A stretch of DNA of 39,058 nucleotides, taken from the IMG/VR virus record IMGVR_UViG_3300021375_000070, positions 1-39,058 of that record; one strand, written 5' to 3'. The notes below the pieces were generated by a model that made no database searches, was not told the DNA's origin, and saw only the letters and a list, made by a program, of their open reading frames with translations. Position 1 is the stretch's first letter; each line of letters begins with the position of its first letter. The stretch is from a virus. This document shows, in pieces, positions 3,901-39,058 of this stretch. A program made the translations under genes and the position numbers.

Positions 3901-3932
3901 ACCTCCACTAAGAAAGCAATAGAGATACTGAT

Positions 3933-4379: not shown

Positions 4380-4395
4380 TTAAGAGGGCGACCAG

Positions 4396-4836: not shown

Positions 4837-4837
4837 C

Positions 4838-5197: not shown

Positions 5198-5199
5198 AG

Positions 5200-5589: not shown

Positions 5590-5590
5590 T

Positions 5591-5998: not shown

Positions 5999-6007
5999 GA
6001 GACTTAA

Positions 6008-6922: not shown

Positions 6923-6937
6923 TCCCCTCGTGGGCTA

Positions 6938-7023
6938 GGGAGGTTCTGGTTGTCGGGTGCTGGAGCCTCCCGCTTTAACAAACTCCACCCGACTCTTTTT
7001 CACACAATAGGGAACACCCGACA
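6938..7023 (+). promoter_or_regulatory. Alternative RNA pairings in the leader of the tail chaperone gene
   Basis: GTCGGGTG (6952-6959) is complementary to two identical copies of CACCCGAC. One is at 6986-6993, followed by CTCTTTTT. The other is at 7015-7022, directly against ATG 7023; there the pairing extends to nine bases and includes the A of the start codon. A third helix, GGGAGG (6938-6943) with CCTCCC (6966-6971), interlocks with the first two in pseudoknot topology. Pairing with the proximal copy resembles an intrinsic terminator. Pairing with the distal copy would cover the initiation region. Confidence 0.5.
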
Positions 7024-7403
7024 TGGACCTTTCTAAAACCATTCCTACCAACGACACGATTGTTGTCGAACTTGAATTTAACGGTGAAGTCATCAAGAAT
7101 GACGACGGCACCCCTATGACTATTGAAGTATACCTACCTCACAGCAAAGAATACCGTACGGCCCGCCATGGTCAAACGGACACCCTGATCGAAAAGAAGA
7201 CCGAACGTCTGAAATCTGCTGAAGCAGAGGAGTTGGGCGTAGAGTTCTTGGCTAAGACGACCAAAGATTGGAACATCACTTTTGGTGGTGAAAAACCCAA
7301 ACTTACTGTCGTCAAAGCTAAAGAGGTTTACTCCACGGTTCTTTGGGTTGGTGATATTATTGCCCAGAAGGTAGAAGAAGCCAAGGGTTTTACGAAAGCC
7401 TAA
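7023..7403 (+). CDS. Tail assembly chaperone, short form (lambda gpG-like)
   Basis: 126 residues, soluble and mixed alpha/beta, in the conserved place between tail tube and tape measure. Members of this class coat the tape measure protein while the tail tube polymerises. The C-terminus (AKGFTKA) covers a canonical slippery heptamer at 7385-7391, and the stop at 7401-7403 is followed directly by a long stem-loop. The start ATG 7023 is overlapped by the putative RNA pairing described for the leader. Function is inferred from position and frameshift layout more than from sequence. Confidence 0.78.
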   Translation: MDLSKTIPTNDTIVVELEFNGEVIKNDDGTPMTIEVYLPHSKEYRTARHGQTDTLIEKKTERLKSAEAEELGVEFLAKTTKDWNITFGGEKPKLTVVKAKEVYSTVLWVGDIIAQKVEEAKGFTKA

Positions 7404-7741
7404 CTTCCCAATTACTTGCTTATGCTGAACACGAGTTCAAATTAAGCAAGCCGGGGAAGGGTGGCACACTTAGAGAACATCTTGAGCAAGTAGAGAGGCA
7501 GGCCGGACGTAAGTTACAGGAATTGGAAGCGCCAGATTTCCCATTTACCTTGTCTTATATCTGGTCTGCCTTTTTGAGTCTCAATAACTCCAGAAGCTCT
7601 GGGTACTCAGCAAACCCAATCTCCTTCACAGAGATTAAGGCTTTTGTGGAATTAACGCACATACCACTTTCCACTAGGGACGTGGAAACGATCAAACTCC
7701 TTGACCGGAAATACTTAGAGGTGATGAACTCCGATGGCTGA
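7023..7741 (+). CDS. Tail assembly chaperone, -1 frameshift fusion (gpGT-like)
   Basis: Reading from ATG 7023 with a -1 slip at G GGT TTT (7385-7391) gives a 239-residue protein: 123 residues in the first frame, then YESLTSQLLAYAEHEFKLS and on to the TGA at 7739-7741. The downstream frame is open throughout and coding-like, but has no ATG and no ribosome binding site; its first alternative codon is an unsupported TTG at 7523. This is the conserved G/GT layout, in which the minor fusion recruits tube subunits through its T domain. The end overlaps the tape measure start by 8 nt. Confidence 0.8.
7385..7459 (+). promoter_or_regulatory. Programmed -1 frameshift signal: slippery site plus three-tier stem-loop
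   Basis: The slippery heptamer GGGTTTT (7385-7391) is in the X XXY YYZ register. Twelve nt later begins a coaxial stem: CTTCCC 7404-7409 with GGGAAG 7454-7459, CTTGCTTA 7415-7422 with TAAGCAAG 7443-7450, and TGAAC 7426-7430 with GTTCA 7435-7439, closing an ACGA loop. Internal loops are 5x3 and 3x3. The zero-frame stop lies between slippery site and stem. Confidence 0.8.
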
Positions 7742-10220
7742 TCTTGTAATTACCGCTGACGTGTCTTCCATCCGTGACGCGGAGAAGGCACTCAAGCGTT
7801 TTTCAGATGCTAGTGAGAAGTTGGGTCGTTCTGTACTCAACACTGCTAATAAAGTGCAGAATGTGTCCTCTGGATGGGATCAAGCCAATAAGTTGTACAA
7901 GCAAGGTGTCTTGAACTCTCAGGCACTGGCAGCGGCACAGACAGAATTAGCTAGGGAACTGGCAACCCTTAATGGTTATACGAAGTCCAATGGTGCGCTT
8001 AATACTCAGAGGGCGCTTGCGGAACTCAGGGCTGCTCAGGCTGCTAGGGGATCCGCTCGTGCAACTGAGGAAGCCGCTCGTGCAGCACAGCAAGCCGCAA
8101 ACCGTCAACGTGAACTTCGAATGCGTTACCAAGAGGGCTATGCAACATTCGCTCGTGCGCAACAAGAGATGCGCGGTCTTCGTGAGGCTATGCGGGCTGG
8201 CATCATTACGACAGATCAATACCGGGAACGTGTTCGCCTCCTTAGAGAAGAGATGAACCGTTCTGGTGACGCTGCTCAAGGTGTCGGGAGAAGGATGAGC
8301 CGCACTGGGGTACTAATCCAACAAACTGGCTATCAGGTCGGTGACTTTATCGTTCAGGTTCAGTCTGGGACTAACGCCTTCGTAGCTTTCGGGCAACAAG
8401 CCACTCAGCTTGCAGGTACTCTGACACTGCTAAAAGGCAAGTGGCTCCTGATTGGCTCTGTACTTGGGGTCGCCATCCCCCTGATTACTGCTGTTGCTGC
8501 TGCGTTTATGAGGACCCGTGAGCAGTCTAAGGGTTTAACAAATGACACCAACGGGTTAAGAAAAGAGGTTGATGAACTAAGTAATACAATCCAAAACTTA
8601 TCTGTTGTGCAAAGGGCTGTGGGAAAAGATTTTGAAACGGGTTTAACAAAAGCGTTTGAAGAATCTGCAAGTGCGGTAGGAAGATTGCTTAGTGAACTTA
8701 GGGCAGCTAGGTTTGAAGCTGCTATGCGCCCTGTCATAGACAGTCTAACTGAGATGACTGTCGGTATAGATCGTGTTAATGTTGCCGTAAGTACAATCTC
8801 TGGTTTTAATGCTCTAATAAAAGACGGAGAAAAACTTAGTGTGGTCCAACAAGCGTTACTGGATGATGCTACGGCTTTGTTGCAGCAAAACATACTCTTA
8901 GCGTTGAATTATAACGATATTAGCTCCGCTCTTGATGCGATTTCTGAGTCTGAGACTACTAAGGGCTTGATTGTTTCTTTTGCAGAAGCTCTTGAAAAAG
9001 CTGATGCCTTGGCTAATGAAGTTATTGGTAAACAGCTTTATCAGGCTCTAGTTGATGCCGCTGAAGAGGCTGGCGTTCTTGATGAGGCATTAGCTTTAAT
9101 TGAAGGTTCCGCAGACAGTGCTGCTGACAGTACAGGTGGAATATCTCGTAATCTTAGGGACGCTACAAATGAAGCCCTGAGACTTAGAGATGCAATGAAC
9201 TCTGTTGGTCGTGCAGCACTTAGCCGACAAGATCAGGTAGCCGTACTCAGATCGCAGATTGCAGCAGCCAGAGCCGGGACAAGTGTGGCAGGGGCGGAAG
9301 CTAGCACAGAAACAGCTTTGGAGTTGAGTAGGGCTGGTGCAACAATGGATCAAATAGCTGCGGCGGCTGTTGCGGCGGGACAACAAGCTACTCTAGTAGA
9401 GTCATTAGAGTCTACGCTGTCAGGCTTACTTAAAACAGACACGGGTCCTAAAGGTTCTGGGGGTAAAGACCCAGCCCAATCCACTGCTGAATACCTTGAG
9501 AAGCTCAAGAAAGAGGCTGAGTTCAAACTCCAGCTTGTAGGACTGTCCGAGCAAGAACAGCGTGGCATGGAGATCAAGAAACAATATCTTGAGACCCTAG
9601 AGCAAGACAACCGCGCTCTAACAGATGCCGAACAATCTCGTATTGATGCTATCCTGAAGTCTGAGGAGGCTCTTAGGAAAGCGACAGAAGCTGAGCAGAG
9701 ACGTGAAAAGATCCAACAGTCTATCACTAGCAACATTGAAGGCGCCCTAATGTCTCTTGTTGAAGGTACTGCGTCTGTAGAGGATGCCTTCAAAACTATG
9801 CTTAGGAATATCCTGCTGGAGATCTTCCGTCAACAAGTTGCCAATCCTATTGCAAAAGGTGTCGCCAGTTTCTTTGCGGCTGATGGGGCTGTTCTTTCGA
9901 GAGGTAACGTGGTTCCCTTTGCTAATGGTGGTGTCGTTGGTAGCCCTACCTTCTTCCCAATGTCTGGAGGTCGAACTGGCCTAATGGGTGAAGCTGGTCC
10001 AGAAGCCATCATGCCCCTTAAGCGTGGACCTAATGGTAAACTCGGAGTTGAGGGTGGTAGTAATGTCACAGTCCAGCAGACTTTCAACTTTGCCGCAAAT
10101 GGCGACGAAAGTGTTAAGCGGATCATCGCAGAAGCTGCACCAAAAATCGCTAACCTGACACAAAAGCAAATCTTGGATAGTCGTCGTCGTGGCGGCACCA
10201 TGAAAGCTACATTTGGATAA
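7734..10220 (+). CDS. Tail tape measure protein
   Basis: 828 residues, the second longest gene in the window. It sets tail length and is ejected on DNA entry. The N-terminal 200 residues are Ala/Arg/Gln-rich helix. Residues about 232-262 are a hydrophobic segment (LLIGSVLGVAIPLITAVAAAF), typical of tape measure proteins. The C-terminal 150 residues carry the usual lambda gpH-like tail: ANGGVVGSPTFFPM, GLMGEAGPEAIMPL and a final RRGGTMKATFG. Codon and base use shifts toward A/T around 8520-9250, suggesting a recombined or faster-evolving middle. The family predicts roughly 120 nm of tail at about 0.15 nm per residue, which is inference only. Confidence 0.92.
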   Translation: MADLVITADVSSIRDAEKALKRFSDASEKLGRSVLNTANKVQNVSSGWDQANKLYKQGVLNSQALAAAQTELARELATLNGYTKSNGALNTQRALAELRAAQAARGSARATEEAARAAQQAANRQRELRMRYQEGYATFARAQQEMRGLREAMRAGIITTDQYRERVRLLREEMNRSGDAAQGVGRRMSRTGVLIQQTGYQVGDFIVQVQSGTNAFVAFGQQATQLAGTLTLLKGKWLLIGSVLGVAIPLITAVAAAFMRTREQSKGLTNDTNGLRKEVDELSNTIQNLSVVQRAVGKDFETGLTKAFEESASAVGRLLSELRAARFEAAMRPVIDSLTEMTVGIDRVNVAVSTISGFNALIKDGEKLSVVQQALLDDATALLQQNILLALNYNDISSALDAISESETTKGLIVSFAEALEKADALANEVIGKQLYQALVDAAEEAGVLDEALALIEGSADSAADSTGGISRNLRDATNEALRLRDAMNSVGRAALSRQDQVAVLRSQIAAARAGTSVAGAEASTETALELSRAGATMDQIAAAAVAAGQQATLVESLESTLSGLLKTDTGPKGSGGKDPAQSTAEYLEKLKKEAEFKLQLVGLSEQEQRGMEIKKQYLETLEQDNRALTDAEQSRIDAILKSEEALRKATEAEQRREKIQQSITSNIEGALMSLVEGTASVEDAFKTMLRNILLEIFRQQVANPIAKGVASFFAADGAVLSRGNVVPFANGGVVGSPTFFPMSGGRTGLMGEAGPEAIMPLKRGPNGKLGVEGGSNVTVQQTFNFAANGDESVKRIIAEAAPKIANLTQKQILDSRRRGGTMKATFG

Positions 10221-10225
10221 ACTAG

Positions 10226-10813
10226 ATGGCTATTTCATACCCACTATCGACACCTACCACAATTGGAATTGAGAGTGTTGAGATCCGTGCTAAGAACACT
10301 GTCGCAATCTCTGAGTCCCCATTCACCTACAAGCAACAGATCGTAGATTTTGGTGGACAGAAGTGGGAAGCCTCTGTGAATATCCCACCTGTTCGTCGAG
10401 ACTTAGCTGCTGAGTGGAAAGCCTTTCTAACGGCACTTAAAGGTCCGGTAGGAACATTCCTCCTTGGTGATCCTGACTATGCGACACCGAGGGGGACTGT
10501 TAGTTCCTGCACCTTAACTGGGAGTGCTGGAGATGAAACTGTCTCTGTCACTATGACTGGATCACTTCTAGCTGGCGATTATATTCAACTTGGCTCAGGC
10601 TCTAATTCAAAGTTGCACCAAATTCTTGTTGACCAAACTGGCAGTGGCACCCTAGAGATTTGGCCCGCACTTAGGGCTGACTACACGAGTGCCACTGTCA
10701 CATTCAATAATCCTAAGGGCGTATTCAGGCTTTCGAGCAATGTGACCTCTTGGGCAATCAATAACTCCAGCGTCTACGGTATTTCATTCGATGCAGTAGA
10801 AGCTATAGTGTAA
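10226..10813 (+). CDS. Distal tail or minor tail protein
   Basis: 195 residues. The segment FTYKQQIVDFGGQKWEASV with PPVRRDLAAEWKAFLTALKGPVGTFLLGDPDY near residues 30-85 is a recurrent pattern in siphovirus tail proteins encoded just after the tape measure. The C-terminal part is beta-rich and ends with SWAINNSSVYGISFDAVEAIV. Position matches lambda gpM or the distal tail protein (Dit) that caps the tube. The next gene starts 9 nt downstream. Exact family name uncertain. Confidence 0.65.
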   Translation: MAISYPLSTPTTIGIESVEIRAKNTVAISESPFTYKQQIVDFGGQKWEASVNIPPVRRDLAAEWKAFLTALKGPVGTFLLGDPDYATPRGTVSSCTLTGSAGDETVSVTMTGSLLAGDYIQLGSGSNSKLHQILVDQTGSGTLEIWPALRADYTSATVTFNNPKGVFRLSSNVTSWAINNSSVYGISFDAVEAIV

Positions 10814-10822
10814 GGTGAGAGC

Positions 10823-11446
10823 ATGTCCCGAGAACTTTCAGGTGCGGTAATAGCCAGTCTTGAAGATGAGGTTATCCACCCCTTTTACGCAATTGAGTTG
10901 CTTTTTGATGGGGGCCAAGTTCTCCGTATGTGGACTGGGCTTGGCACTCTGGTGTTCGGGGGTAATAACTGGACTGGTGCCGGAACACTCTTGAACATCG
11001 ACAGTATTGAGGAGACCACGGAGATCGCCGCTAAAGGTGCAACTATCACTCTGAGTGGGGTAGACACCAGCGCACTCTCTCTGGCCCTCAGTGAGCCTTA
11101 TCAGGGGCGTGTGTGCAACGTCTATTTTGGGATGTTTGTCCGTGGTAAACTGCTCCAAGAAAGTTCCTCCCATATCCTCCTGCAAGACGGCTCCAAGATA
11201 ACTCTGGATGATGGTAAAACTAGCCTGACGAGCATCTTCTCTAGTTACATGGATCAGATGAACATTGAGGAAGGCCCCGAGACTAGCACCATTGAACTGC
11301 TTGTGGAAAACAAGCTAGTTGATCTTGAGCGGTCTAGGGTTGCTCGATTTACGAGTAGTTACCAGAAGTCTGCGTATCCCGGAGACAAGGGATTGGATTT
11401 TGTTGAGAGCCTTCAGGATAAGGAAATCGTCTGGGGGAAGGCATGA
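10823..11446 (+). CDS. Minor tail protein (tail-tip cluster)
   Basis: 207 residues, beginning MSRELSGAVIASLEDEVIHPFYAIELLFDGGQVLRMWTG. The sequence then runs through repeated strands (GNNWTGAGTLLNI, ATITLSGVDTSALSLALSEPYQGR) and ends in a charged FVESLQDKEIVWGKA. This resembles minor tail proteins between Dit and the tip in phages of marine alphaproteobacteria, and has the 'W.G.G.l..gg..w.G.G.ll' opening of DUF2163-like proteins. Its end overlaps the GNAT gene by 4 nt. Probably part of the tail tip. Confidence 0.6.
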   Translation: MSRELSGAVIASLEDEVIHPFYAIELLFDGGQVLRMWTGLGTLVFGGNNWTGAGTLLNIDSIEETTEIAAKGATITLSGVDTSALSLALSEPYQGRVCNVYFGMFVRGKLLQESSSHILLQDGSKITLDDGKTSLTSIFSSYMDQMNIEEGPETSTIELLVENKLVDLERSRVARFTSSYQKSAYPGDKGLDFVESLQDKEIVWGKA

Positions 11447-11898
11447 CCACCTATCAGCAAGAGTTCATGGCTACAGCAGACCGAGAGGAAGCAGAGGCCC
11501 TAATGAGAGCAGATTGGGAAGAGATCAACAGCCCCGCTAAGGGTGACAAGTTTGAGATCGACTGGGAAACTTATCTTCAATTGGAGTCTATGGGAATCCT
11601 TAAAGTGTTCACTGCCCGAGACGATGGGAGACTGGTGGGATACTTTAGTGTCATTCTCTCGGCAGTGTTGCACAACAAAGGTTCTGTACAAGCTGTTGGT
11701 GATGCCTTCTATGTCCACAAAGACTTTCGTAAAGGCTTCGTAGGGATTAAGTTGTTCAAATTCGTAGAAAGCTGCCTGCTTGAGGATGGTCACAGGGGGC
11801 TTGTCGTGGCTTCCACAGAAGCGTATCCGTTAGATCGTCTATTAACTAGAATGGGCTATGTTAAAGCAGAAACCCAGTACTACAAGGATTTGACGTAA
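11443..11898 (+). CDS. GNAT-family N-acetyltransferase in the tail cluster
   Basis: 151 residues. LVGYFSVILS, then a strand VGDAFYVHKDFRKGFVGIKLFKFVESCLLEDGHRGLVVAST and LLTRMGYVKAETQYYKDL, match the GNAT fold. The R/Q-x-x-G-x-G/A acetyl-CoA loop appears as RKGFVGIK, a degenerate form common among phage members. It overlaps the previous gene (4 nt) and the J-like gene (1 nt), so it is made together with tail-tip proteins. The substrate is unknown; modification of a virion or host protein is possible. The fold call is good; activity is inferred. Confidence 0.75.
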   Translation: MTTYQQEFMATADREEAEALMRADWEEINSPAKGDKFEIDWETYLQLESMGILKVFTARDDGRLVGYFSVILSAVLHNKGSVQAVGDAFYVHKDFRKGFVGIKLFKFVESCLLEDGHRGLVVASTEAYPLDRLLTRMGYVKAETQYYKDLT

Positions 11899-14474
11899 TG
11901 CCTGCATTTACCTCCGCCGCAGCCCTTGGCTCTACCATCTTGGGTCTGTCTGCTGCCACTGTTACCTTTACAACTGTTGCCGTAGGTTTCGCTGCTCAAG
12001 CTGCTCTTGGTTATGCTCTCTATGCGCTTACGCCTAAGCCTAAGATACAGGATCAGAACAGGGGCTACACTGTTAACAACCGTGGTTCTAATTTGGACCA
12101 TCAGGTTATTTACGGCAAGATGCGCGTAGGTGCGGTTATCGTGTTCGATGGCACCACAGGCTCTAACAACAAGTTCTTTCACAGGGTTCTTGCTGTCGCT
12201 GGGCATGAGGTTGAATCCTTCGAAGAAATCTACATCAACGACGCCAAGGTCACTCAGCTTGATCCTGATGGTAATGTCGCTCAAGTGGAGTTGCCTAACG
12301 GAGACCTTAGCAGCCGCTATAACAACGTCCTTCGGCTCAAACTCAAGACTGGCACCTCAGACCAAGCCGCAGATACCGACCTTGTGAATGAAGTTCCCGA
12401 TTGGACTAACGAACACAGGCTTCGTGGTATTGCTTACATCTATGCCCGTTTTAGTTTTAATGCAGACAAGTACCCTAATGGCCTTCCAACAATCACTGCT
12501 GTTGTTAAGGGTAAGAAGGTTTATGACCCTCGCACTCAGACAACCGTTTGGAGCGACAACCCTGCACTCTGCTTGAGAGACTATCTGACAGAGACTGGCT
12601 ATGGTCTTGGGGAAGAGGAAGCCAACATTGATGATAGTCGTGTTATCGAAGCAGCTAACGTCTGCGAATACTTCAATTATCCCACTCTGACTGGTGACGC
12701 TCGATATACTTGCAACGGTTCTTTCATTACCTCTGTCACACCTTACGACATCCTGAATGACTTGTTGACTTCTATGGGAGGGCTGTTGTGGTACTCTCAA
12801 GGTAAATGGCGCATAAAGCCTGCCTATTGGACTGATCCTGTCCTAGATCTCACTCTGGATGATTTCCGCTCTTCGGTTAGTGTGCAAACACGACATTCCC
12901 GCAGGGATAACTTCAATGTGGTCAAAGGTACATTCCGTGGTGAAGTCAGCAATTGGCAGGTAACAGACTACCCCCAAGTGACCAACTCCGTGTTTGTCGC
13001 TGCGGATGGGGGCCAAGAGTCAGTTATTGACCTAGACTTGCCGTTTACCTCTGATCCTGATATTGCCCAACAGATTGCCCTAGTGTCTCTTGAGCGTAAT
13101 CGTCAACAGCTTACGGTATCTGCATCCTTCGGTATGAGGGCATTTCAGGTCCAAGTGGGCGACAATATACGGCTTACCAACTCACGTTTTGGCTGGACTA
13201 ATAAAGAGTTTGAGGTAGTCTTGTGGACCTTTGGTTTGGCGGATGGCGGTGATATTCAAGTTCAAATGACCTTGAGAGAAACCGCAGAAAGCATTTTTGA
13301 TGATATTTCAGATGCTGCCATATACGAGGCTGACAATACAACTCTCTTGTCGCCATTTGATGTACCACCGATTGGGGTTAATGTCTCGGCTGAATTGTTC
13401 GTTTCAAATGAGAAAGTGTCCAATCTTGCTGTAGCTACGATTTCATCAGGTACTCCCGAGAGTATTGATTATGTTGAGGTAGAGTATCGGTTCAACCGAA
13501 CCCTAGTCTCTGATCCAGAGCCAGACCCTCTTCCCGAGTTTTCAGTCTTTGGGCAAGGGCCTCTAGGAGAGTTCCGAGTAAGAGACTTAGAGACTGGAAT
13601 CTATGACTTTAGGGCAAGGCCAGTCAATACTTTCGGGGTCAAAGGTGACTACGAAAATCTGACTGATGTAGAGGTCAATGCCTTTATCGGAGACCCCTCC
13701 GATGTGACGGGCTTTAATAAAGAACTTTCTGGCGGGAGCCTCTTCCTGTCGTGGACACCTCTTCCAGACGCCGACCTTAGCCATTACCGCATCAGACATA
13801 ACTCTAACACAACAGGGGCTACTTGGGGCAACTCTAGTACTGTCGTTGAAAGGGTCGCAAGGCCGGGAACAAGTGCAGCCCTACCAGCACGTTCTGGCAC
13901 CTTCTTGATCAGGGCTTACGACAAAGAGGGCAACTTCAGCGAGAACCCAACAACTCTTGTAATCCAACCCTCAGAGCTGCCCCAACTTGGCCAGATTGAT
14001 ACTCAAACTGAGGATCCAACCTTCAGCGGTTCTAAGACTAATACTGCTGTCGTTTCTACCACACTCCAGATTGACGACACAACCGCAGCAAGTCCAACCG
14101 GGGAATACCTGTTCTCCAACTACATCGACACTGGCTCTGCTCGAAGTGCTAGGGTTACGGGTTTCCGTACATTCACTCGCGCCTTCGATGGTGGCACCCT
14201 ACTGTGGGACGACATCCCTCAACTGTGGGATACTTGGCCTGACAATTGGGACACTTGGACAAACGAAACTGCTAACTTTGGGGATGTCTCTGTCGCTGTA
14301 TATGTTTCTACCACGGATGATGATCCAGCAGGGTCTCCAACTTGGGGGAGTTATACCCTTGCAAACGGGAGTTTCGTACAAGGTAGGGCATTTAGGTTTA
14401 AAGCAGTTCTTAGCAGTACCAGTACAAACTACACACCCGCAATCAGCGCATTGAGCGCAACTGTAGAATACTAA
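11898..14474 (+). CDS. Tail tip attachment protein (lambda gpJ-like)
   Basis: 858 residues, the longest gene. The N-terminal 45 residues are hydrophobic (STILGLSAATVTFTTVAVGF, then ALGYALYALTPKPK), as in other J-like proteins. They are followed by QVIYGKMRVGAVIVFDGTTGSNN and a canonical central region (LRGIAYIYARF, YPNGLPTITAVVKGKKVYDPRT, NPALCLRDYLT). Residues from about 500 to 690 contain fibronectin-like beta modules, and the C-terminus is a Trp/Asp-rich beta region. It forms the central tail hub and spike and contacts the receptor or downstream fibres. Confidence 0.88.
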   Translation: MPAFTSAAALGSTILGLSAATVTFTTVAVGFAAQAALGYALYALTPKPKIQDQNRGYTVNNRGSNLDHQVIYGKMRVGAVIVFDGTTGSNNKFFHRVLAVAGHEVESFEEIYINDAKVTQLDPDGNVAQVELPNGDLSSRYNNVLRLKLKTGTSDQAADTDLVNEVPDWTNEHRLRGIAYIYARFSFNADKYPNGLPTITAVVKGKKVYDPRTQTTVWSDNPALCLRDYLTETGYGLGEEEANIDDSRVIEAANVCEYFNYPTLTGDARYTCNGSFITSVTPYDILNDLLTSMGGLLWYSQGKWRIKPAYWTDPVLDLTLDDFRSSVSVQTRHSRRDNFNVVKGTFRGEVSNWQVTDYPQVTNSVFVAADGGQESVIDLDLPFTSDPDIAQQIALVSLERNRQQLTVSASFGMRAFQVQVGDNIRLTNSRFGWTNKEFEVVLWTFGLADGGDIQVQMTLRETAESIFDDISDAAIYEADNTTLLSPFDVPPIGVNVSAELFVSNEKVSNLAVATISSGTPESIDYVEVEYRFNRTLVSDPEPDPLPEFSVFGQGPLGEFRVRDLETGIYDFRARPVNTFGVKGDYENLTDVEVNAFIGDPSDVTGFNKELSGGSLFLSWTPLPDADLSHYRIRHNSNTTGATWGNSSTVVERVARPGTSAALPARSGTFLIRAYDKEGNFSENPTTLVIQPSELPQLGQIDTQTEDPTFSGSKTNTAVVSTTLQIDDTTAASPTGEYLFSNYIDTGSARSARVTGFRTFTRAFDGGTLLWDDIPQLWDTWPDNWDTWTNETANFGDVSVAVYVSTTDDDPAGSPTWGSYTLANGSFVQGRAFRFKAVLSSTSTNYTPAISALSATVEY

Positions 14475-14483
14475 GGATCACAT

Positions 14484-15392
14484 ATGAGCCAGCATGACTT
14501 TAACATTGCAAACCAGACGGCATCTAACGCTAGGGCAGACATAAACAATGCTCTGAGTGCTTTGGCGAGTTTGTCGTCTGGTTCAAGTGCGCCCTCGACT
14601 ACCTATGCTAATATGCTTTGGTATGACACGGGGACTAACATCCTGAAGATGAGGTCTGAGGCAGATGACGCTTGGATAAGCATCTCCTACATGGACCAAT
14701 CTGGAAACAACTTCCGAATCCTAGACAACACTCAGGTGACAAACACCAGTGGAACACAGACAGGTCTCCTCGGGGATCAAACTCAAGCAACTTGGGAAAC
14801 TGGAACAGCTACGACAGAAAGCCTCGTAAGTCCTGCGAAGATCAAAGCTGCTATTGATGCACTTGGGATTAGCGAGTCTGACCTGTCACTTGGCACTGAG
14901 TTTGTTCAAACAATCGTTCCCTCATCAGGCTCATTCCTCGACATTACGCTCCCAGATACCACTAAGTTTAGTTCTGTGACGATTGAGTTTCAAAATGTTA
15001 TACACTCTGGCGGTAGTGATCGCGAACTCGGGATAAGGTTCTCCACGGACGGTGGTTCGACCTTTAAGGTGGCTTTTGATGACTATCTTGGTAATAATCT
15101 CCTAGGGTCTGGTTCGGATCAGGCGATTGGTCTCACCGGAGTCACGTCTAACGACTCAAGTCGTGGCGTCTGTGGAGAGGTGAACATCTATGATTATGAC
15201 TCTTCATCACAAAGGGTTCAGGTTAAAGGTGATCTAATCCATGATGATGGTAGCAGTGCCATGAGCCGCAGCTTGGACTTTGGTCGTTTGGTGGATCCGG
15301 GGCCATACAACGCGATTAGGTTTCTCTGGAAAGGAGAGCCAAATTTCAGGTCACAAGGGCGAGTGATTGTCCGTGGCCATCGTAAGAATTAA
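14484..15392 (+). CDS. Tail fibre-type protein
   Basis: 302 residues. The N-terminal part (FNIANQTASNARADINNALSALASLSSG, then YANMLWYDTGTNILKMRSEADDAWISI) is a module seen at the base of many marine phage tail fibres. The central stretch (GDQTQATWETGTATTESLVSPAKIKAAIDAL) is another common fibre module. The C-terminal half is a beta-sandwich-like region (LDITLPDTTKFSSVTIEF, RVIVRGHRKN) that may bind receptor or glycan. It lies just after the tip protein. Receptor is unknown. Confidence 0.72.
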   Translation: MSQHDFNIANQTASNARADINNALSALASLSSGSSAPSTTYANMLWYDTGTNILKMRSEADDAWISISYMDQSGNNFRILDNTQVTNTSGTQTGLLGDQTQATWETGTATTESLVSPAKIKAAIDALGISESDLSLGTEFVQTIVPSSGSFLDITLPDTTKFSSVTIEFQNVIHSGGSDRELGIRFSTDGGSTFKVAFDDYLGNNLLGSGSDQAIGLTGVTSNDSSRGVCGEVNIYDYDSSSQRVQVKGDLIHDDGSSAMSRSLDFGRLVDPGPYNAIRFLWKGEPNFRSQGRVIVRGHRKN

Positions 15393-15403
15393 GGGTAGAG
15401 ATA

Positions 15404-16069
15404 ATGGCTGACAAGAAAATCTCAGAACTAACGAACATCACTGGCGCTAACCTCCAAGACACCGATGAGTTTGTTGTCGTTGACACTTCTGCGAATGAGA
15501 CTAAGGCAATCACATATGCTGAACTCAAGAAGTTCACTGGTGATGTCCGCGTTGGTGCGGGCAAAAAAATCTACACCGATGGTGGAAACCTCAGTATTTC
15601 TGCGGACGCCAACAACAGCGCGGCAGCGTCTCTTGTGAACATCTTGGTGGATGGGACTGGGGTGGCTGACTTTACGAATGGCGGCACTCTGCGCTTTAAC
15701 CGAACCGGCTACGTGAATGGCGGTATCTGCGTACAGGGCGGTGACAATGTGCTGGCCCTCGCTGGTGGCGTCAACGCTATCAACAGCGGACTAAACATCG
15801 CGCTATCAGGCCCAGACCACACTGCGGCAACCCGTGGGCTTTTGATGCGAGACGGTACAACAATCGTTTACCAGTATTCTCGCGTATCTGATGCTCACCT
15901 CTGGCGCACTGGTGGTTCTGAGAGGATGAGGGTTGACTCGTCAGGAAACGTAGGAATCGGCACTACAAACCCCGGCTCCAAGCTGTCTATCGTGGGTCTA
16001 CCCACATCAGCCTCTGGTCTTTCCGCTGGCGACATCTGGAACGATAGCGGCACCCTCAAAATCGTATAA
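15404..16069 (+). CDS. Tail fibre or distal receptor-binding protein
   Basis: 221 residues. It starts with MADKKISELTNITGANLQDTDEFVVVD, the usual N-terminal anchor of many fibre proteins. The C-terminal portion contains the GNVGIGTTNPGSKL motif that in longer fibres precedes an intramolecular chaperone. Here no S74-type chaperone domain follows; the protein ends with a short GDIWNDSGTLKIV, so it is a short variant or a mature-length fibre. The region 15600-15830 has more GC than the neighbouring fibre gene, consistent with modular exchange. Confidence 0.68.
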   Translation: MADKKISELTNITGANLQDTDEFVVVDTSANETKAITYAELKKFTGDVRVGAGKKIYTDGGNLSISADANNSAAASLVNILVDGTGVADFTNGGTLRFNRTGYVNGGICVQGGDNVLALAGGVNAINSGLNIALSGPDHTAATRGLLMRDGTTIVYQYSRVSDAHLWRTGGSERMRVDSSGNVGIGTTNPGSKLSIVGLPTSASGLSAGDIWNDSGTLKIV

Positions 16070-16079
16070 AGAAAACAAC

Positions 16080-16202
16080 ATGAACCCGAACGACATCATC
16101 GCGCACTATGCAGCAGAACGACTGCAACTGATGCTTGAACTGCAACAGGCCAAAGCGAAGATCGCTGAACTTGAGGCCGCAGCCCAAAAGGAAACTGAAT
16201 AG
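16080..16202 (+). CDS. Small helical protein, 40 residues
   Basis: A 40-residue ORF starting at ATG 16080 and ending TAG 16200-16202. It is almost wholly alpha-helical, with a heptad-like pattern through QLMLELQQAKAKIAELEAA, suggesting a short coiled coil. The upstream AAAGAAAAC is only a weak ribosome binding site. The stop overlaps the GTG start of the next gene by one base, and the ORF fills the space between fibre and next gene exactly. A fibre-assembly helper or oligomerisation peptide is possible. Function unknown. Confidence 0.55.
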   Translation: MNPNDIIAHYAAERLQLMLELQQAKAKIAELEAAAQKETE

Positions 16203-16504
16203 TGGCTATCACATACAATTGGAACATCGTCACCTGCGAACATGAGGTGGCAACTGGCGGCATCACCGTGGCACACTGGGAGTGCATCGCTGTTGATGGT
16301 GACTACACTGCGCGGGCGTATGGCTCCTGTGGGTTCAACCCCGACGCCTCGGACCCCAACTTCAAGCCTTATGATCAGGTGACTGAAAATGAAGTGATCG
16401 TCTGGGTATGGACTCAGGTTGACAAAATCCAGACTGAGGCTGCACTGGCTGCTAGAATTGATGCGGACAAGAACCCTGTCAGCGCCATTGGGATGCCTTG
16501 GTAA
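16202..16504 (+). CDS. Conserved phage protein of unknown function
   Basis: 100 residues with a GTG start coupled (TAGTG) to the preceding 40-residue ORF. Aromatic and acidic: AITYNWNIVTCEHEV, HWECIAVDGDYTARAYGSCGF and NEVIVWVWTQVDKIQTEAALAARIDADKNP. The second half, ending in a helix with INxK-like spacing, resembles small proteins encoded after fibre genes in cyanophages and other marine phages. No signal or membrane segment. Role unknown; a fibre-associated protein is plausible from position. Confidence 0.6.
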   Translation: MAITYNWNIVTCEHEVATGGITVAHWECIAVDGDYTARAYGSCGFNPDASDPNFKPYDQVTENEVIVWVWTQVDKIQTEAALAARIDADKNPVSAIGMPW

Positions 16505-16516
16505 TAGGAAACTGAT

Positions 16517-16891
16517 ATGGCTTACTCTCTTTCATTTCGTAGTCGTCAAAGGCTTTCGGGTGTACACCCAGACCTTGTGGCTGTAGTTAAACGTGCAATT
16601 GAAATCACCGAACAGGACTTCAGTGTTCTTGAAGGTATCCGTGGTATTGAACGTCAACGTAAGCTGGTAAAAGAGGGTAAGTCTACCACGATGAACTCTC
16701 GACACCTCACAGGACACGCTGTTGACTTGGTTCCCTATCCTGTGTCGTGGGACTGGGAATACTTCTATCCTATTGCTGATGCTATGAAGGCCGCAGCAAA
16801 AGAACTTGACGTAGACGTTGAGTGGGGAGGCGATTGGAAGTCCTTCCCCGATGGCCCACACTTCCAACTTAGCAGAAAGACTTACCCATGA
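16517..16891 (+). CDS. Endolysin: L-alanyl-D-glutamate/VanY-type M15 peptidase
   Basis: 124 residues. The zinc ligands of the M15 family are visible: SRHLTGHAVDL (H63 and D70) and DGPHFQLS (H115), with E103 (DVEWGGDW) as likely catalytic base. Residues 1-45 (FRSRQRLSGVHPDLVAVVKRAIEIT, LEGIR) match the N-terminal part of phage peptidases that cut the L-Ala-D-Glu or related peptide bond in peptidoglycan. There is no signal peptide, so export requires a holin. The following membrane-protein genes complete the lysis cassette, overlapping by 4 nt. Confidence 0.9.
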   Translation: MAYSLSFRSRQRLSGVHPDLVAVVKRAIEITEQDFSVLEGIRGIERQRKLVKEGKSTTMNSRHLTGHAVDLVPYPVSWDWEYFYPIADAMKAAAKELDVDVEWGGDWKSFPDGPHFQLSRKTYP

Positions 16892-17151
16892 GTGAACAAG
16901 AATGGCACCTCTCCCGTAGCGTACCCCTGTCTATGATCTTTGCGATTGCCTGCCAGACAGTGGCTTTGATCTGGTTTGTCGCTACCCTCCGTAATGATGT
17001 GGACGATAACCAAATGAAGATTGTCCAATTGGAGACTAGGACTAAAGACCTCTCTGGTATGGTGCAGGATCAATCTGTCATGGTTGCTCGTATGGACGAG
17101 AACATCAAGGCTATCCGAGACATTATTGAGAAGATGGTAAGACACCCATGA
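16888..17151 (+). CDS. Small membrane protein with coiled coil, lysis cassette
   Basis: 87 residues. One hydrophobic segment (about residues 13-32, PLSMIFAIACQTVALIWFVA) is followed by a charged coiled coil to the C-terminus (NQMKIVQLETRTKDLSGMV and on). This N-in, one-pass topology with a periplasmic coil would fit an accessory lysis protein, or an inner-membrane component analogous to Rz. It overlaps the endolysin (4 nt) and the next membrane gene (4 nt). I cannot tell holin from accessory protein by sequence alone. Confidence 0.68.
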   Translation: MSEQEWHLSRSVPLSMIFAIACQTVALIWFVATLRNDVDDNQMKIVQLETRTKDLSGMVQDQSVMVARMDENIKAIRDIIEKMVRHP

Positions 17152-17411
17152 GTCCAAAGACATACAAAAGGGAACTTGCTGTAGTCCTTGTTGTGTGGTT
17201 AGCCTATGTTGTGGAGACTAAAGATGCTGAAATCATTGGGATGCTGGTCTGGCCTGTCTTCACGTACATGGCTCTTGCTTTTGGTGTTGACTGGTGGGGT
17301 AAGTCTGGCGGGATGCGGAAAGATACCCCTGTTGGGGGGAGGTCCGAACGTAGCGGCCAACACTCAGGTGGGAAAGACGAACACCCAGACTATTGGCCCA
17401 TCGACCGTTAA
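17148..17411 (+). CDS. Putative holin (two membrane segments)
   Basis: 87 residues. Two hydrophobic stretches, about residues 9-22 (LAVVLVVWLAYVVE) and 31-48 (GMLVWPVFTYMALAFGVDW), are separated by an acidic turn (TKDAEI), and a hydrophilic basic C-terminus follows. This is the class II holin pattern; holins open the inner membrane for the endolysin. The last 188 nt overlap the spanin-type gene in another frame, so the C-terminal tail of about 35 polar residues is constrained by the overlap. Holin assignment is from topology and cassette position. Confidence 0.62.
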   Translation: MSPKTYKRELAVVLVVWLAYVVETKDAEIIGMLVWPVFTYMALAFGVDWWGKSGGMRKDTPVGGRSERSGQHSGGKDEHPDYWPIDR

Positions 17412-22569: not shown

Positions 22570-23100
22570 TTAAGACCTTCCGTAAAATGCTGTCTGGTAG
22601 TTTCGTTCCGCCTGCAAGGGCCAGAAGTACCAAGCGTAGTTATCGGTGCTGGAGTAAGGGGTGTCCTTAAACCACTTCAGGCGTCCAACTGACACGATTC
22701 GGGTACACTTGTCAACATATTCTTTGAAGTAGACGTTGTGCATCATGTCGGCTGGTAGGAGCAACCACGTAGGTTTTATGCTCATGAAGTGGTCGATCAT
22801 AGGCAGAAGCACAGATTTGGTGAACGGAGGGTTTGTGATTATCACGTCACACTGCCGTAGATCTTCCTTGGTCAACGACATAGCGTCACGAACCTTACCA
22901 GCGCCCCTGTACTCAATGTCCGACTCCCACTTGCAGGTAGCGACATCCATAAGCAGGTCCGTGAGGTCTCCAGCACCACAACAAGGTTCTGCGAAGTTCT
23001 TACCCCTGACAAACCTCAAGAACTTCTCAGGAAGAGCCTTTGGGTCTGTCGTGGGGTAGAAGTCCTTTTCAATCTTCGGCATATCACTTCGCTTACCCAT
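22570..23100 (-). CDS. SAM-dependent DNA methyltransferase (amino-methyltransferase type)
   Basis: 176 residues. Motif I is AEPCCGAGDLTD (37-48) and motif IV is TNPPF (89-93), the NPPF/Y tetrad of N6-adenine and N4-cytosine DNA methyltransferases. The protein is short with no separate target-recognition domain, similar to many phage orphan methyltransferases. No restriction enzyme lies next to it. Specificity cannot be read from sequence; it may protect phage DNA or mimic a host site such as GANTC. Confidence 0.84.
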   Translation of the reverse strand: MGKRSDMPKIEKDFYPTTDPKALPEKFLRFVRGKNFAEPCCGAGDLTDLLMDVATCKWESDIEYRGAGKVRDAMSLTKEDLRQCDVIITNPPFTKSVLLPMIDHFMSIKPTWLLLPADMMHNVYFKEYVDKCTRIVSVGRLKWFKDTPYSSTDNYAWYFWPLQAERNYQTAFYGRS

Positions 23101-36109: not shown

Positions 36110-36134
36110 TTGACTCTCCTCAGTTTCTAGAATC

Positions 36135-36163
36135 ACCCTACCAAATTCCCTCGTGGGTGTCAA
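36135..36163 (-). promoter_or_regulatory. Sigma70-type promoter P3
   Basis: On the - strand, TTGACA (36163-36158), a 17-nt spacer and TAGGGT (36140-36135), then GATTCTAGAAACTGAGGAG and ATG 36109. GATTCTAGAAAC is identical to the start region after P1. One copy of the TTCCCTCGT repeat lies within the spacer. Confidence 0.65.
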
Positions 36164-36247
36164 GCGAACATTTCCCTCGTACCCCTGAACATTTCCCTCG
36201 TGGGGGTTGACGAACATTTCCCTCGTGGGGGTGCTCATTTCCCTCGT
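36146..36247. repeat. Five-copy TTCCCTCGT repeat array
   Basis: TTCCCTCGT occurs at 36146, 36172, 36193, 36218 and 36239, spaced 26, 21, 25 and 21 bp, mostly within AACATTTCCCTCGTGGGGGT. On the - strand the unit reads ACGAGGGAAATG, which resembles a ribosome binding site and start codon. CCCTCGTGGG also occurs at 6925-6934. One copy lies in the spacer of promoter P3. Confidence 0.85.
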
Positions 36248-36277
36248 GGGGTATCCCAGCACCTCACTCAACCTAAA

Positions 36278-36377
36278 GTTACATTCCATTTCTTGAATAC
36301 AATCATAGGTTGTCAGCACAACTATAGGTTACATTCCATTTCTTGAATACAATCATAGGTTGTCAGCACAACTATAG
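36278..36377. repeat. Two exact tandem copies of a 50-bp unit with internal dyad
   Basis: A 50-bp unit is repeated at 36278-36327 and 36328-36377, and a third begins (GTTACATTC) at 36378. Each unit contains ATAGGTTGT-CAGC-ACAACTAT, an imperfect inverted repeat that could be an operator. No reading frame here looks coding. Confidence 0.9.
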
Positions 36378-36511
36378 GTTACATTCGTATATCTGACTCA
36401 ACCTGAAGTAGAACCGGGACGACACAACCTAAGCGCGTAAAGAAGCCTATTGACTCCCGCGTTCAAATATTGCAGCCGCCGATTCGTTGATTCGTGAGTC
36501 GGCCCGTGTCC

Positions 36512-36541
36512 AGAATATCAGACCGAATCGGGTTTTGTCAA
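36512..36541 (-). promoter_or_regulatory. Candidate sigma70-type promoter P4
   Basis: On the - strand, TTGACA (36541-36536) with TATTCT (36517-36512) at 18 nt, or ATATTC at 17 nt. It would make a leader of about 400 nt across the 50-bp repeats and the TTCCCTCGT array. Box match is good but context evidence is weak. Confidence 0.4.
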
Positions 36542-36887
36542 CAACACTTTTGAGGCGAGTCAATCCGATGTAAATCAGATTCACATTTTCGCAAGACGGA
36601 TTCCCCGCCGCTCTGCTACCCCGATTCGGACATCACAAGAATCATAGCATACGATTCGGGATAAGGTAAACCCCATAAATTCACTATTTTTGATCCAGAC
36701 CCCCTTGACATCCGTAGAACGCGACGAATCGATTTTTTGATATATGGCCCACGGGAACCCTAGCGGCGCTCTAAGGCCCTTTCTAGCGCCTCTGAGGCAC
36801 TATTGACGAATCAGTCCAGAGTATGTAACCGCGCGCGCCCGATTCTTTCTATTGATAAGCGCAAGCCAGTGCAGGGCGAAAAAACGT

Positions 36888-36916
36888 TTGACCCGGTTTT
36901 CGTTTTCCTGTAATGA
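36888..36916 (+). promoter_or_regulatory. Promoter for the rightward block
   Basis: TTGACC (36888-36893), a 17-nt spacer and TAATGA (36911-36916). The transcript would start near 36923, upstream of a GC hairpin and the first + strand ATG at 36968. A GATTCG/GANTC site overlaps the -10 edge. Confidence 0.7.
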
Positions 36917-36925
36917 TTCGGTCTC

Positions 36926-36941
36926 GGGGCGGCTTCGCCCC
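36926..36941 (+). other. GC-rich hairpin in the 5' leader of the rightward block
   Basis: GGGGCG pairs with CGCCCC around a GCTT loop, right at the predicted transcript 5' end. It may stabilise the early mRNA or be a protein-binding site. It has no U-run, so it is not a terminator. Confidence 0.55.
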
Positions 36942-36967
36942 ACATAACCAAACCAAAGGGTCTCACT

Positions 36968-37216
36968 ATGAAATTCACACACATTTTCAGCAACGCAACC
37001 AAGGAAATTCGGCCTATTGAGGATGCTCCCGCCGCCGTTCGCGAGGTTACATTTCGTGCGCTGGGCTTCCGTTTGATTGATATCGACCGCGCAGAGTTCG
37101 ACGCGAACGGCCACCCCTGCTACAAAAAGGGCGGCTGGTCATACGGTCACTTTCAAGACGGTTGGATCTGCGCGGGGGCCGGTGGTCTCAATTCAATGCG
37201 GGTAATCCCCGCTTAA
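36968..37216 (+). CDS. Small protein, first gene of the rightward block
   Basis: 82 residues: MKFTHIFSNATKEIRPIEDA, then PAAVREVTFRALGFRLIDIDRAEFDANGHPCYKKGGWSYGHF. Mixed alpha/beta. A short AGGGT precedes the ATG. It is followed by another small gene with a strong GGAGGG. No family recognised. Base use (GCG, CGC codons) is more GC-rich than the leftward arm. Confidence 0.62.
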   Translation: MKFTHIFSNATKEIRPIEDAPAAVREVTFRALGFRLIDIDRAEFDANGHPCYKKGGWSYGHFQDGWICAGAGGLNSMRVIPA

Positions 37217-37236
37217 CAAACTGTGGAGGGAATAAC

Positions 37237-37485
37237 ATGTCACTTAACCTAAAACGGAATGAGATTGACTCGCTTTGGAATCAAGGTTTCAGGTGCTTCG
37301 AGATATACACCTATAACAAAACTCCAGTGCGTTACGGCGAAAACCTTTTTGACGCCGGCAAGGTTAGCGGTTGGAATATTGAATTCGTATTCTCTACCCG
37401 CGAATTGCTTGAGTCTTACCCTTACTTTGACGCTATTATCGGGGCCGATTCCCTTTGTATTGCTGAGACTGTTTGGAGGGGCTAA
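37237..37485 (+). CDS. Small protein of unknown function
   Basis: 82 residues from ATG 37237, with GGAGGG 6 nt upstream; an in-frame ATG at 37162 lies in the preceding gene and is not favoured. SLNLKRNEIDSLWNQGFRCF, EIYTYNKTPVRYGENLFDAG, then WNIEFVFSTRELLESYPYFD. Mixed alpha/beta. Overlap with nothing; separated by 3 nt from the next start. Confidence 0.66.
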   Translation: MSLNLKRNEIDSLWNQGFRCFEIYTYNKTPVRYGENLFDAGKVSGWNIEFVFSTRELLESYPYFDAIIGADSLCIAETVWRG

Positions 37486-37488
37486 CGC

Positions 37489-37569
37489 ATGAAAATCCGC
37501 AATCTATTAACTGACATAATCGGCTTATTGGCGATCGTGCTAGCAAGCCTCGCAATCTATATCCTGTAA
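37489..37569 (+). CDS. Single-span membrane peptide, 26 residues
   Basis: ATG 37489 to TAA 37567-37569 with GGAGGGG upstream: MKIRNLLTDIIGLLAIVLAS, then LAIYIL. A short positive N-terminus and one hydrophobic helix. Fits between two genes with a strong ribosome binding site. Small membrane peptides of phages may affect host membrane proteins, but no function is known. Confidence 0.6.
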   Translation: MKIRNLLTDIIGLLAIVLASLAIYIL

Positions 37570-37592
37570 ACAACCAATAAGGAATCTTGAAT

Positions 37593-37766
37593 ATGAAAAC
37601 CTACACTCTCGCAATGCGTCCAAGCTTCAAAATTGAAGGTGCATTCAGCACGATTGAACCGCTTGCAAACTTGCCGCTCATGACAGTCACGCAGGCGCGC
37701 AAGGCGTGCGATATCGCCCGCGCAAATGGCCATGATGTGATCATCCTAAATACCGCAGCACAATAG
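37593..37766 (+). CDS. Small protein, 57 residues
   Basis: ATG 37593 to TAG 37764-37766, with AAGGAATCTTGAAT upstream. MKTYTLAMRPSFKIEGAFST, then IEPLANLPLMTVTQARKACD and IARANGHDVIILNTA. Strand, helix and a final strand; basic. The spacing and ribosome binding site fit the block. Confidence 0.62.
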   Translation: MKTYTLAMRPSFKIEGAFSTIEPLANLPLMTVTQARKACDIARANGHDVIILNTAAQ

Positions 37767-37778
37767 AGGAATCCTGAT

Positions 37779-37934
37779 ATGAAGAATCTTGAATATGTCG
37801 TTTATCAAACGCGGGACAGTATCGAACCTTTCGCAATTGCCGCTTTTCTGGAACGGTTTGAAGCGGAACAGTACCTCGATACCGTTTCAAGGCACACTGG
37901 CCTATATCAATTCTACATCCAGAGGGAGTACTGA
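37779..37934 (+). CDS. Small protein, 51 residues
   Basis: ATG 37779 to TGA 37932-37934, with GAGGAATCCTGAT upstream. MKNLEYVVYQTRDSIEPFAI, then AAFLERFEAEQYLDTVSRHT. Beta start, then an amphipathic helix with FLERFEAE and YLDTV. The next ATG follows the stop by 1 base (TGATATG). No family recognised. Confidence 0.62.
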   Translation: MKNLEYVVYQTRDSIEPFAIAAFLERFEAEQYLDTVSRHTGLYQFYIQREY

Positions 37935-37935
37935 T

Positions 37936-38589
37936 ATGAAACTGACACTGAAAGCAGCAACCGCAACCGCTGGCAAAGTATCGCGCGGCAATGGCAAAAT
38001 GCCCGGATCAACTTTCGCAACCGACGCCTTTGCTTGCAATGTAGGGTCGCGACTTGCCAAAATCAAAGGCTCTGTTTGTGAGAAATGCTACGCGCGCCGG
38101 ATCCAGAAACTGCGACCAAGCGTCAATAAAGGCTGGAGCGACAATTATCTTAAGGCAACCGCCTTGATTGCCAACGCGCCCGACAAGTGGATCTCGGCGA
38201 TGGTTTTCCAGATTGAGAAAGCACTACTCAAGACTGGCCAACCGTTTCACCGGTGGTTCGACTCGGGCGACTTGGACTCGGTCGAGATGCTCGATTGCAT
38301 AAAGGCGGTTGCTGAAAAGACCCCAGAGATAAAGCATTGGTTGCCGACCCGTGAGTTGTCGATTGTGACCAAGTCTAAGCGAGAGACGCCACCGAATCTT
38401 GTGATTCGGGTCTCTGCACCAATGGTTAACGACAAACCTTTATCGTGGCCAAACACCTCGACTGTACATGATAAGACTGCGGAGCCTGTAGGCCATGTTT
38501 GCCCAGCTTCTAAACAGGGCAATGCGTGCGGCAGCTGTCGCGCTTGCTGGACGCCATCGGTTGCCAATGTCTCATACCCTAAGCATTAA
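37936..38589 (+). CDS. Gp88-like cysteine-rich phage protein
   Basis: 217 residues from ATG 37936, following GAGGGAG; a longer frame from 37789 lies over the preceding gene. Cysteines cluster in three places: FACNVGS with CEKCYARR, one (LDCIKA), and CPASKQGNACGSCRACW near the C-terminus. Conserved-looking segments are FHRWFDSGDLDSVEML, IKHWLPTRELSI and NLVIRVSAPM. This matches, from memory, the GP88 family named after a mycobacteriophage protein. The Cys clusters suggest a metal or Fe-S site. Enzyme activity is unknown. Confidence 0.75.
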   Translation: MKLTLKAATATAGKVSRGNGKMPGSTFATDAFACNVGSRLAKIKGSVCEKCYARRIQKLRPSVNKGWSDNYLKATALIANAPDKWISAMVFQIEKALLKTGQPFHRWFDSGDLDSVEMLDCIKAVAEKTPEIKHWLPTRELSIVTKSKRETPPNLVIRVSAPMVNDKPLSWPNTSTVHDKTAEPVGHVCPASKQGNACGSCRACWTPSVANVSYPKH

Positions 38590-38602
38590 AAGGAGATATC
38601 CA

Positions 38603-38749
38603 ATGCAACGATTCCACGTTCTAATGCGCGACGAATTGGGGGAAGAGTTTTCGGTGACAGTAGAACTACCGGATCTGGTGGACAACGTGACCGAATGGAT
38701 TGGAGAAGAGTATCCCGAGTCTGACATAGTCCTAATACGCCCCATTTGA
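38603..38749 (+). CDS. Small acidic protein, 48 residues
   Basis: ATG 38603 with AAGGAGAT 6 nt upstream. MQRFHVLMRDELGEEFSVTV, then ELPDLVDNVTEWIGEEYPESDIVLIRPI. Strand, strand, helix, strand; acidic. The 'e......p.S.iv.i.' ending resembles small phage proteins of unknown role. It is the last gene visible in the window. Confidence 0.64.
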   Translation: MQRFHVLMRDELGEEFSVTVELPDLVDNVTEWIGEEYPESDIVLIRPI

Positions 38750-39058
38750 GCCGATACAGGGGCGAGTCGATGGCGTCGGCAGGGGTAGCACCTTGCGGCG
38801 CTATCGTCGTTCTATGGGGCGTTACGGCGGCCCCTACTGTGTGAGGTATTATGACACCACAGCAACGGGTTAACCTGTTTTTATTTGTCGCCTAGGTGCG
38901 AATGATTCTCATTTGCAAGAATCGGTAGCGTTATGGGGGTCTGCACGAATCACCCTCTCTGTCAAGGTTTTTCTTCACAGTCTCAATGATTTATGCCAAT
39001 GTGTTGCACTTATGTCACATACCCACGGGTACACGCTAGGGTTGAGTCTTTTGTGATC
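38750..39058. other. Non-coding 3' end of the window
   Basis: No plausible gene is seen on either strand. The stretch holds a Fur-box-like palindrome (38897-38917), five GANTC sites (38774, 38903, 38919, 38947, 39044) and several short G-rich segments. A 14-codon frame at 38851 has only a weak ribosome binding site. It may be the region before the missing packaging genes. Confidence 0.55.
38897..38917. promoter_or_regulatory. Fur-box-like palindrome
   Basis: TGCGAATGA-TTC-TCATTTGCA is palindromic with one mismatched pair. It matches the classic Fur box GATAATGATAATCATTATC at 13 of 19 positions and the TGC...GCA ends resemble alphaproteobacterial iron-regulator sites. Whether it lies at a promoter is unknown. 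Confidence 0.4.

Follow-up and report, generated by a model that had tools for sequence, protein, structure and literature searches.

A kilobase-scale island of GANTC sites beside presumed early genes in a marine alphaproteobacterial phage and in other phages, with a probable GANTC methyltransferase

The DNA analysed here (39,058 bp), referred to as the window, spans an entire virus record. Its genes fall into three blocks, and the second includes a DNA methyltransferase gene that is relevant to what follows:

87-17411, rightward: head and tail genes
17.8-36 kb, leftward: replication and nucleotide genes (PhoH, ribonucleotide reductase, exonuclease, polymerase A, primase-helicase, sigma region 4 and ThyX)
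22570-23100, minus strand: adenine DNA methyltransferase (METHYLTRANSFERASE), 176 aa, motif NPPF, assigned by homology to phage enzymes with published GANTC specificity
after 36.97 kb, rightward: small genes

As neither a terminase nor a portal gene could be identified in the subset of ORFs that was scanned, the record is probably incomplete, with a few kb missing between its ends (positions 1 and 39058). An ORF at 734-1669 was labelled 'DNA methyltransferase' by its first PHROGs score, but this label was rejected: many head maturation proteases match that stretch, and the ORF encodes a head protease. The closest isolate is Roseobacter phage CRP-6, with 62% identity in the capsid protein and 47% in the primase-helicase.

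An earlier note on this DNA had pointed to about 15 GANTC sites in 468 bp of non-coding DNA between divergent promoters. Exactly 15 sites were counted at 36452-36919, and eight of them are in the longer forms GATTCG or CGAATC, as the note had said, the final one ending at 36920. The divergent setting was also correct, judged by gene layout. The enrichment stood, but the expected number of 1.8 was a naive 1/256 figure; dinucleotide shuffles of the same 468 bp gave a mean of 2.8 GANTC and a maximum of 10 (n=5,000). No other palindrome of the form NNnNN occurs there more than 5 times. The proposal that the cluster is confined to non-coding DNA did not hold, as these 15 sites are the core of an island of approximately 2.9 kb that runs through coding genes. 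The island and the elements in and beside it are as follows:

36112-39048, no strand assigned: GANTC island, 36 sites, 12.3/kb, O/E 3.1, delimited as a maximal-scoring segment
36146-36253, no strand assigned: four copies of TTCCCTCGTGGGGG-type (GTGGGG) repeats adjoining the island
36269-36390, no strand assigned: a 50-bp repeat in two tandem copies, with part of a third, separating the GTGGGG repeats from the GANTC core
36450-36456, plus strand: TTGACTC, which is TTGATTC in the relative G001
36452-36919, no strand assigned: densest core, 15 GANTC (8 of them as GATTCG/CGAATC), in the intergenic gap that separates the leftward replication genes from the small rightward ones
36513-36541, minus strand: candidate leftward promoter found by inspection, with TTGACA (36541-36536), a 17-nt spacer containing GATTC (36529-36525) and a weak -10 box, ATATTC
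36968-37216, plus strand: first rightward ORF by the core, 82 aa, with no family match and no GANTC
37580-37596, plus strand: ribosome-binding site containing GAATC (AAGGAATCTTGAATATG), found by inspection
37767-37782, plus strand: similar GAATC-bearing ribosome-binding site, found by inspection
37936-38589, plus strand: GP88-family gene (PF17338), a coding part of the island, with 4 GANTC here and up to 13 in orthologues

Across the full window GANTC is scarcer than expected, with 93 sites against 184 from shuffles. Outside the island the density is 1.58/kb (O/E 0.41), and the densest 468-bp segment below 35 kb has 4 sites. When the same 93 sites were redistributed uniformly (n=2,000), the highest cluster score was 14.6, compared with 37.8 observed. 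Similar density elsewhere, or absence of the cluster from close relatives, had been named as grounds for doubting a function. The remaining genome is not dense in GANTC, but the adjoining coding genes are, and the cluster is present in the relatives.

Comparison with the nearest relative, contig G001, revealed that 5 of the 6 GANTC in the alignable part of the core are kept, where about a quarter would be expected. At 36450-36456 the central base differs (GACTC to GATTC) and GANTC is preserved, and the spacer GATTC of the candidate leftward promoter keeps its position in G001, where the -35 box is TTTACA. GANTC is also found inside some ribosome-binding sites of the form AGGAATC. Repeats like TTCCCTCGTGGGGG (e.g. 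GAACAATTCCCACGTGGGGG) lie beside the islands in L089, L084, L008, L087, L088 and L052, and are possible operators or iterons. The 50-bp tandem repeats have CAACCTA/TAGGTTG ends, and G001 has a shorter version of them. That the genes beside the island are early is read off the gene layout, and they are called presumed early genes below.

Single GANTC islands were found in 17 further phages or contigs. In CRP-6 (44,927 bp, annotated as complete), the 2.5 kb at 42433-44886 contain 38 GANTC and the 42.5 kb outside them 31. Contigs G001-G007, G010, G015, G016, G018 and G020 have one island each, of 1.1-4.8 kb, those of G003, G015 and G018 being weaker than the rest. An unrelated group of phages of approximately 147 kb, namely Roseobacter phage DSS3P8, Rhodobacter phage RcXuper, Phaeobacter phage MD18 and Ruegeria phage RpAliso (about 120 kb examined for RcXuper and RpAliso), has one island of 12-14 kb each, at 6.6-9.7 sites/kb. 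The number of GANTC per island ranges from 15 to 123. No island was present in the cobaviruses CRP-4, CRP-5 and ICBM2, in the autographiviruses CRP-113, -125 and -171, in the first 50 kb of the HMO-2011-type and similar phages CRP-2, -13, -207 and -603, or in RDJL1 and contigs G011-G014. RDJL Phi 1 (RDJL1; L108 plus L185) has a single GANTC in 62.7 kb, and RcKickapoo (L172-L174, L183 and L184) has 7 in 94 kb despite a methyltransferase homologue.

Pooled over 15 phages, GANTC has an O/E of 3.03 in islands (545 sites) and 0.43 outside them. The runner-up among the palindromes, TGNCA, reaches 1.86 in islands and 1.36 outside; its mild excess is perhaps due to TTGACA/TGTCA promoter elements. All four central bases are used in islands (GAATC 156, GATTC 131, GACTC 75 and GAGTC 60) and the flanking bases are near neutral, with a 1.36-fold bias towards C/G. 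The bias is mildly in the direction of the motif YGAKTCG reported for Caulobacter GcrA, but every central base is present. The enriched unit is therefore GANTC itself, the recognition sequence of CcrM and HinfI. The suggestion that GATTCG is the dedicated site of a phage regulator was rejected, as all forms of GANTC are enriched and the flank bias is weak.

The enrichment extends to coding DNA. In DSS3P8 the island has 9.4 GANTC/kb in coding and 10.0/kb in non-coding DNA, and its genes hold 66 sites against 37.6 from codon shuffles. Gene gp68 of CRP-6 has 15, where the codon-shuffle mean was 6.1 and the maximum 12 (n=2,000). Codon shuffles thus argue against an amino-acid or codon artefact for several genes, while the window's own gp88 (4 GANTC) taken alone gave a result that was not significant. 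Among gp88 copies on the island side, seven of nine have 6.5-19.5 GANTC/kb, and those of L089 and L093 have 1.5 and 3.0; all seven copies from other phages have 0-1 GANTC. When the gp88 copies were aligned, 11 of the 24 GANTC-bearing columns were occupied in one copy only. Selection on GANTC is well supported, and we are confident that the islands exist, that they are under selection and that they are connected with GANTC methylation.

GANTC is also placed non-randomly in promoters. Among the island phages, GANTC starts 13-15 nt past the start of TTGACA in 16 cases against 3.1 expected (Poisson P 2e-7), and 29-38 nt past it in 25 cases against 10.4 expected. The pattern TTGAC[AT]-N7-10-GANTC-N2-4-TAT[AT] has 15 matches in the 18 island genomes (two in part), with eight of the 18 represented and six of the matches in one contig, G020. 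When GANTC was swapped for each of the 15 other palindromes of the same form, 0 or 1 match was returned, and 24 control phages (1.2 Mb) gave one match, in the methyltransferase-bearing contig G014 (43 kb, L122-L124, no island). Ten of the 15 promoters lie outside islands, where GANTC is otherwise avoided. The earlier proposal of a promoter role gains support from several relatives, in which GANTC keeps a constant position directly before the -10 box. However, neither the window nor CRP-6 has a promoter matching the strict pattern, and the window has only looser candidates, such as the one at 36541-36513. Many island GANTC are inside genes, and a promoter role leaves these unexplained. A scan of viral contigs for TTGACTC-GANTC-TATAA was set aside, as it gave mostly chance matches, 7 of 83 being in GANTC-dense surroundings. 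A 4.2-kb GANTC-dense contig, L285, has three promoter-like TTGACTC-GAATC-TATAA sites, two of them identical, within 500 bp (207-707).

The amino-type DNA methyltransferase mentioned in the earlier note is the product of the minus-strand ORF 22570-23100. Only its N-terminal ~95 residues resemble PhiLM21_p027 (BLASTP E 2e-7 in a single comparison; HHalign 94.9%), and it is about 36% identical to the DSS3P8 enzyme AMO44073. A structural model (pLDDT 76.5) resembles N6-adenine methyltransferases, among others M.BseCI, M.EcoKI and M.TaqI. Across the family NPP is invariant and is followed by F, W or Y, and homologues are found almost exclusively in phages of Alphaproteobacteria. According to PMC5537653, tests covered PhiLM21_p027 and Paracoccus prophage enzymes of 179 aa, which methylate GANTC, and Figure 3 there lists AMO44073 alongside them, among phage enzymes that are putatively or experimentally GANTC-specific. 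The figure also includes an enzyme of PBC5, a phage with three methyltransferases, and the one listed may differ from the homologue matched here. Judged by this homology, the window enzyme is probably specific for GANTC. Unlike the phages described here, phiLM21 has no island, and the available text of PMC5537653 mentions none.

An NPPF/W adenine methyltransferase is present in every island phage with enough sequence. Among the genomes found independently of this gene, 8/8 such island phages have it, compared with 1/15 of those without an island, and relatedness reduces the eight to fewer independent events. The enzyme occurs without an island in G014 and RcKickapoo, and no island was found in phiLM21 or in methyltransferase-bearing rhizobial, Caulobacter and Labrenzia phages and a Sulfitobacter phage-plasmid. 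The enzyme is thus not sufficient for an island. The Sulfitobacter entry (L361, NZ_CP136687.1) is a 46 kb 'plasmid' with capsid, portal, terminase and integrase genes, and is probably a phage-plasmid. The same methyltransferase (54% identical to that of DSS3P8) is found in Microcystis phage Mel-JY03 (L153, PP395636.1), which avoids GANTC and for which the stated cyanobacterial host may be wrong. No CcrM-type (PF01555) genes were found in the island phages. They also encode no GcrA, so any reader of methylated GANTC must be a host protein. The proposed connection with CcrM-type methylation is well supported, with GANTC as the enriched unit and a methyltransferase from a family with members that methylate it.

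Caulobacter GcrA brings RNA polymerase to the methylated GANTC sites that it binds, and promoters with a mutated GANTC lose 60-80% of their activity (PMC3667746); GcrA makes contact with domain 2 of sigma and accelerates formation of the open complex (PMC7403470). The promoters of the island phages resemble these and other alphaproteobacterial GcrA/CcrM promoters in having GANTC in sigma70-type promoters; in the bacteria a sigma70 cofactor that aids the open complex recognises it as m6A, and the same may hold in the phages. In contrast, the bound regions described in those studies have about 2 sites/kb (1.78 against 0.58 at random), whereas the viral islands have 7-15/kb over kilobases, including inside genes.

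Given how GcrA reads methylated GANTC in Caulobacter, and the precedent of a GANTC excess in repABC loci (PMC11514494), we tentatively favour methylation-gated early transcription, in which GANTC methylation, written by the phage and read by the host, flags the early region and controls whether its promoters fire, the reader probably being RNA polymerase with sigma70 and GcrA. The core at 36452-36919 would be the centre of a methylation island kept by selection at the early-gene end of the genome. GANTC in the virion genome would be methylated by the phage enzyme together with host CcrM. On injection, the host sigma70 RNA polymerase, most likely with GcrA as the cofactor that reads methylated GANTC, would fire those promoters that have GANTC immediately 5' of the -10 box or close to the transcription start, while the dense array would concentrate the reader on the early region. 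Replicated copies that are still unmethylated would lose the signal, turning early transcription down, and the phage methyltransferase would later re-mark progeny DNA. Keeping GANTC off the remaining genome would keep the mark local. The sites inside genes may serve reader concentration, GcrA/CcrM titration or replication-linked timing.

Other roles for the islands are conceivable. One, already raised in the earlier note, is a replication origin, or a partition control region, with methylation-sensitive initiation comparable to that of GANTC-rich repABC loci or GATC-rich Dam-controlled origins. The repABC loci exceed the GANTC expectation at promoters and in the origin inside repC, and thus provide a case, in an alphaproteobacterial replicon with methylation-linked control, of sites accumulating locally in both coding DNA and promoters (PMC11514494). 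Iteron-like repeats adjoin the core in the window, and the genes of GANTC-specific phage methyltransferases lie near replication modules (PMC5537653). The cumulative GC skew also has its minimum at the island, both in the window (37-38 kb) and in CRP-6 (about 43-44 kb), but this minimum coincides with the point of diverging transcription and is therefore confounded. No RepABC genes were seen here, and the islands are denser and longer than their repABC counterparts (the A. tumefaciens ori2 module has nine sites). As islands of 1-14 kb span several genes and extend far beyond an origin, those of 12-14 kb would be left unexplained, and spacer GANTC is also found in promoters outside islands. We consider an origin possible, but unlikely. 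A titration decoy, whereby the island multiplies methylated GANTC, draws GcrA (or CcrM) off the host chromosome and disturbs the cell cycle, with promoter use secondary, appears rather unlikely. It would fit the single-copy columns in the gp88 alignment, which suggest that density and not position is selected in coding DNA, and 15 to 123 sites per island multiplied by the phage copy number could approach host site numbers. However, it explains neither the fixed placement of GANTC in promoter spacers nor its avoidance elsewhere, as a decoy could be genome-wide.

The enriched unit is short, as it would be if a phage or host protein recognised unmethylated GANTC and methylation were incidental. 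Against this, a palindrome of four fixed bases around a free central one is precisely what CcrM and HinfI recognise, and the matching methyltransferase family co-occurs with the islands, which makes such a protein improbable. In phage P1, a phage methyltransferase (Dam) is paired with a cluster of its sites in pac, which is about 160 bp and in which Dam sites control cleavage. A methylation-dependent packaging start of this kind would suit CRP-6, which has its own methyltransferase and an island that adjoins the terminase gene (terL 40252-41598, next gene 41582-41977). P1 pac, however, is short and acts in packaging, while the islands are 1-14 kb long and tied to promoters, and the spacer-GANTC promoters would be unexplained; we regard this as the least probable of the alternatives. 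It is also very improbable that GANTC is avoided owing to HinfI-like host restriction, with the island a tolerated or protected exception. Avoidance is indeed strong genome-wide in many roseophages, as in RDJL1 and RcKickapoo above, and GANTC depletion has been published for pelagiphages (PMC9516812). Tolerance, though, would yield the random level at most, and the islands are at 2.5-4 times expectation, with active enrichment evident from the codon-shuffle tests.

Returning to methylation-gated early transcription, a more specific form of it is possible, but more doubtful. It supposes a viral epigenetic clock, in which the phage methyltransferase writes the island and host GcrA-RNA polymerase reads it, so that injected (methylated) and new (unmethylated) genomes are told apart and each infection has a single round of early-gene expression; two or more unrelated groups of phages would have such a clock.

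Avoidance of GANTC by marine phages (PMC9516812) and phage enzymes resembling CcrM (PMC5537653, PMC7139368) are already known. The phages described here share genome-wide avoidance with the pelagiphages, other marine phages of Alphaproteobacteria, but no local enrichment is described in the available text of PMC9516812. No description of GANTC islands was found in the open-licence literature, and the word GANTC does not appear in the CRP-6 paper.

The virus-host role of phage methyltransferases with CcrM specificity was described as still to be elucidated (PMC7139368), and an island of matching target sites beside presumed early genes offers a concrete target for them. As GANTC is avoided across the genome, packed by the genes presumed to be expressed first, and accompanied by a probable GANTC methyltransferase, our findings suggest that DNA methylation serves as a switch or mark during infection in several groups of marine alphaproteobacterial viruses. 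The island-bearing isolates CRP-6, DSS3P8, RcXuper, MD18 and RpAliso make the idea testable. If true, the reach of epigenetic control by GcrA and CcrM would widen beyond the bacterial cell cycle to include how viruses take over abundant marine bacteria.
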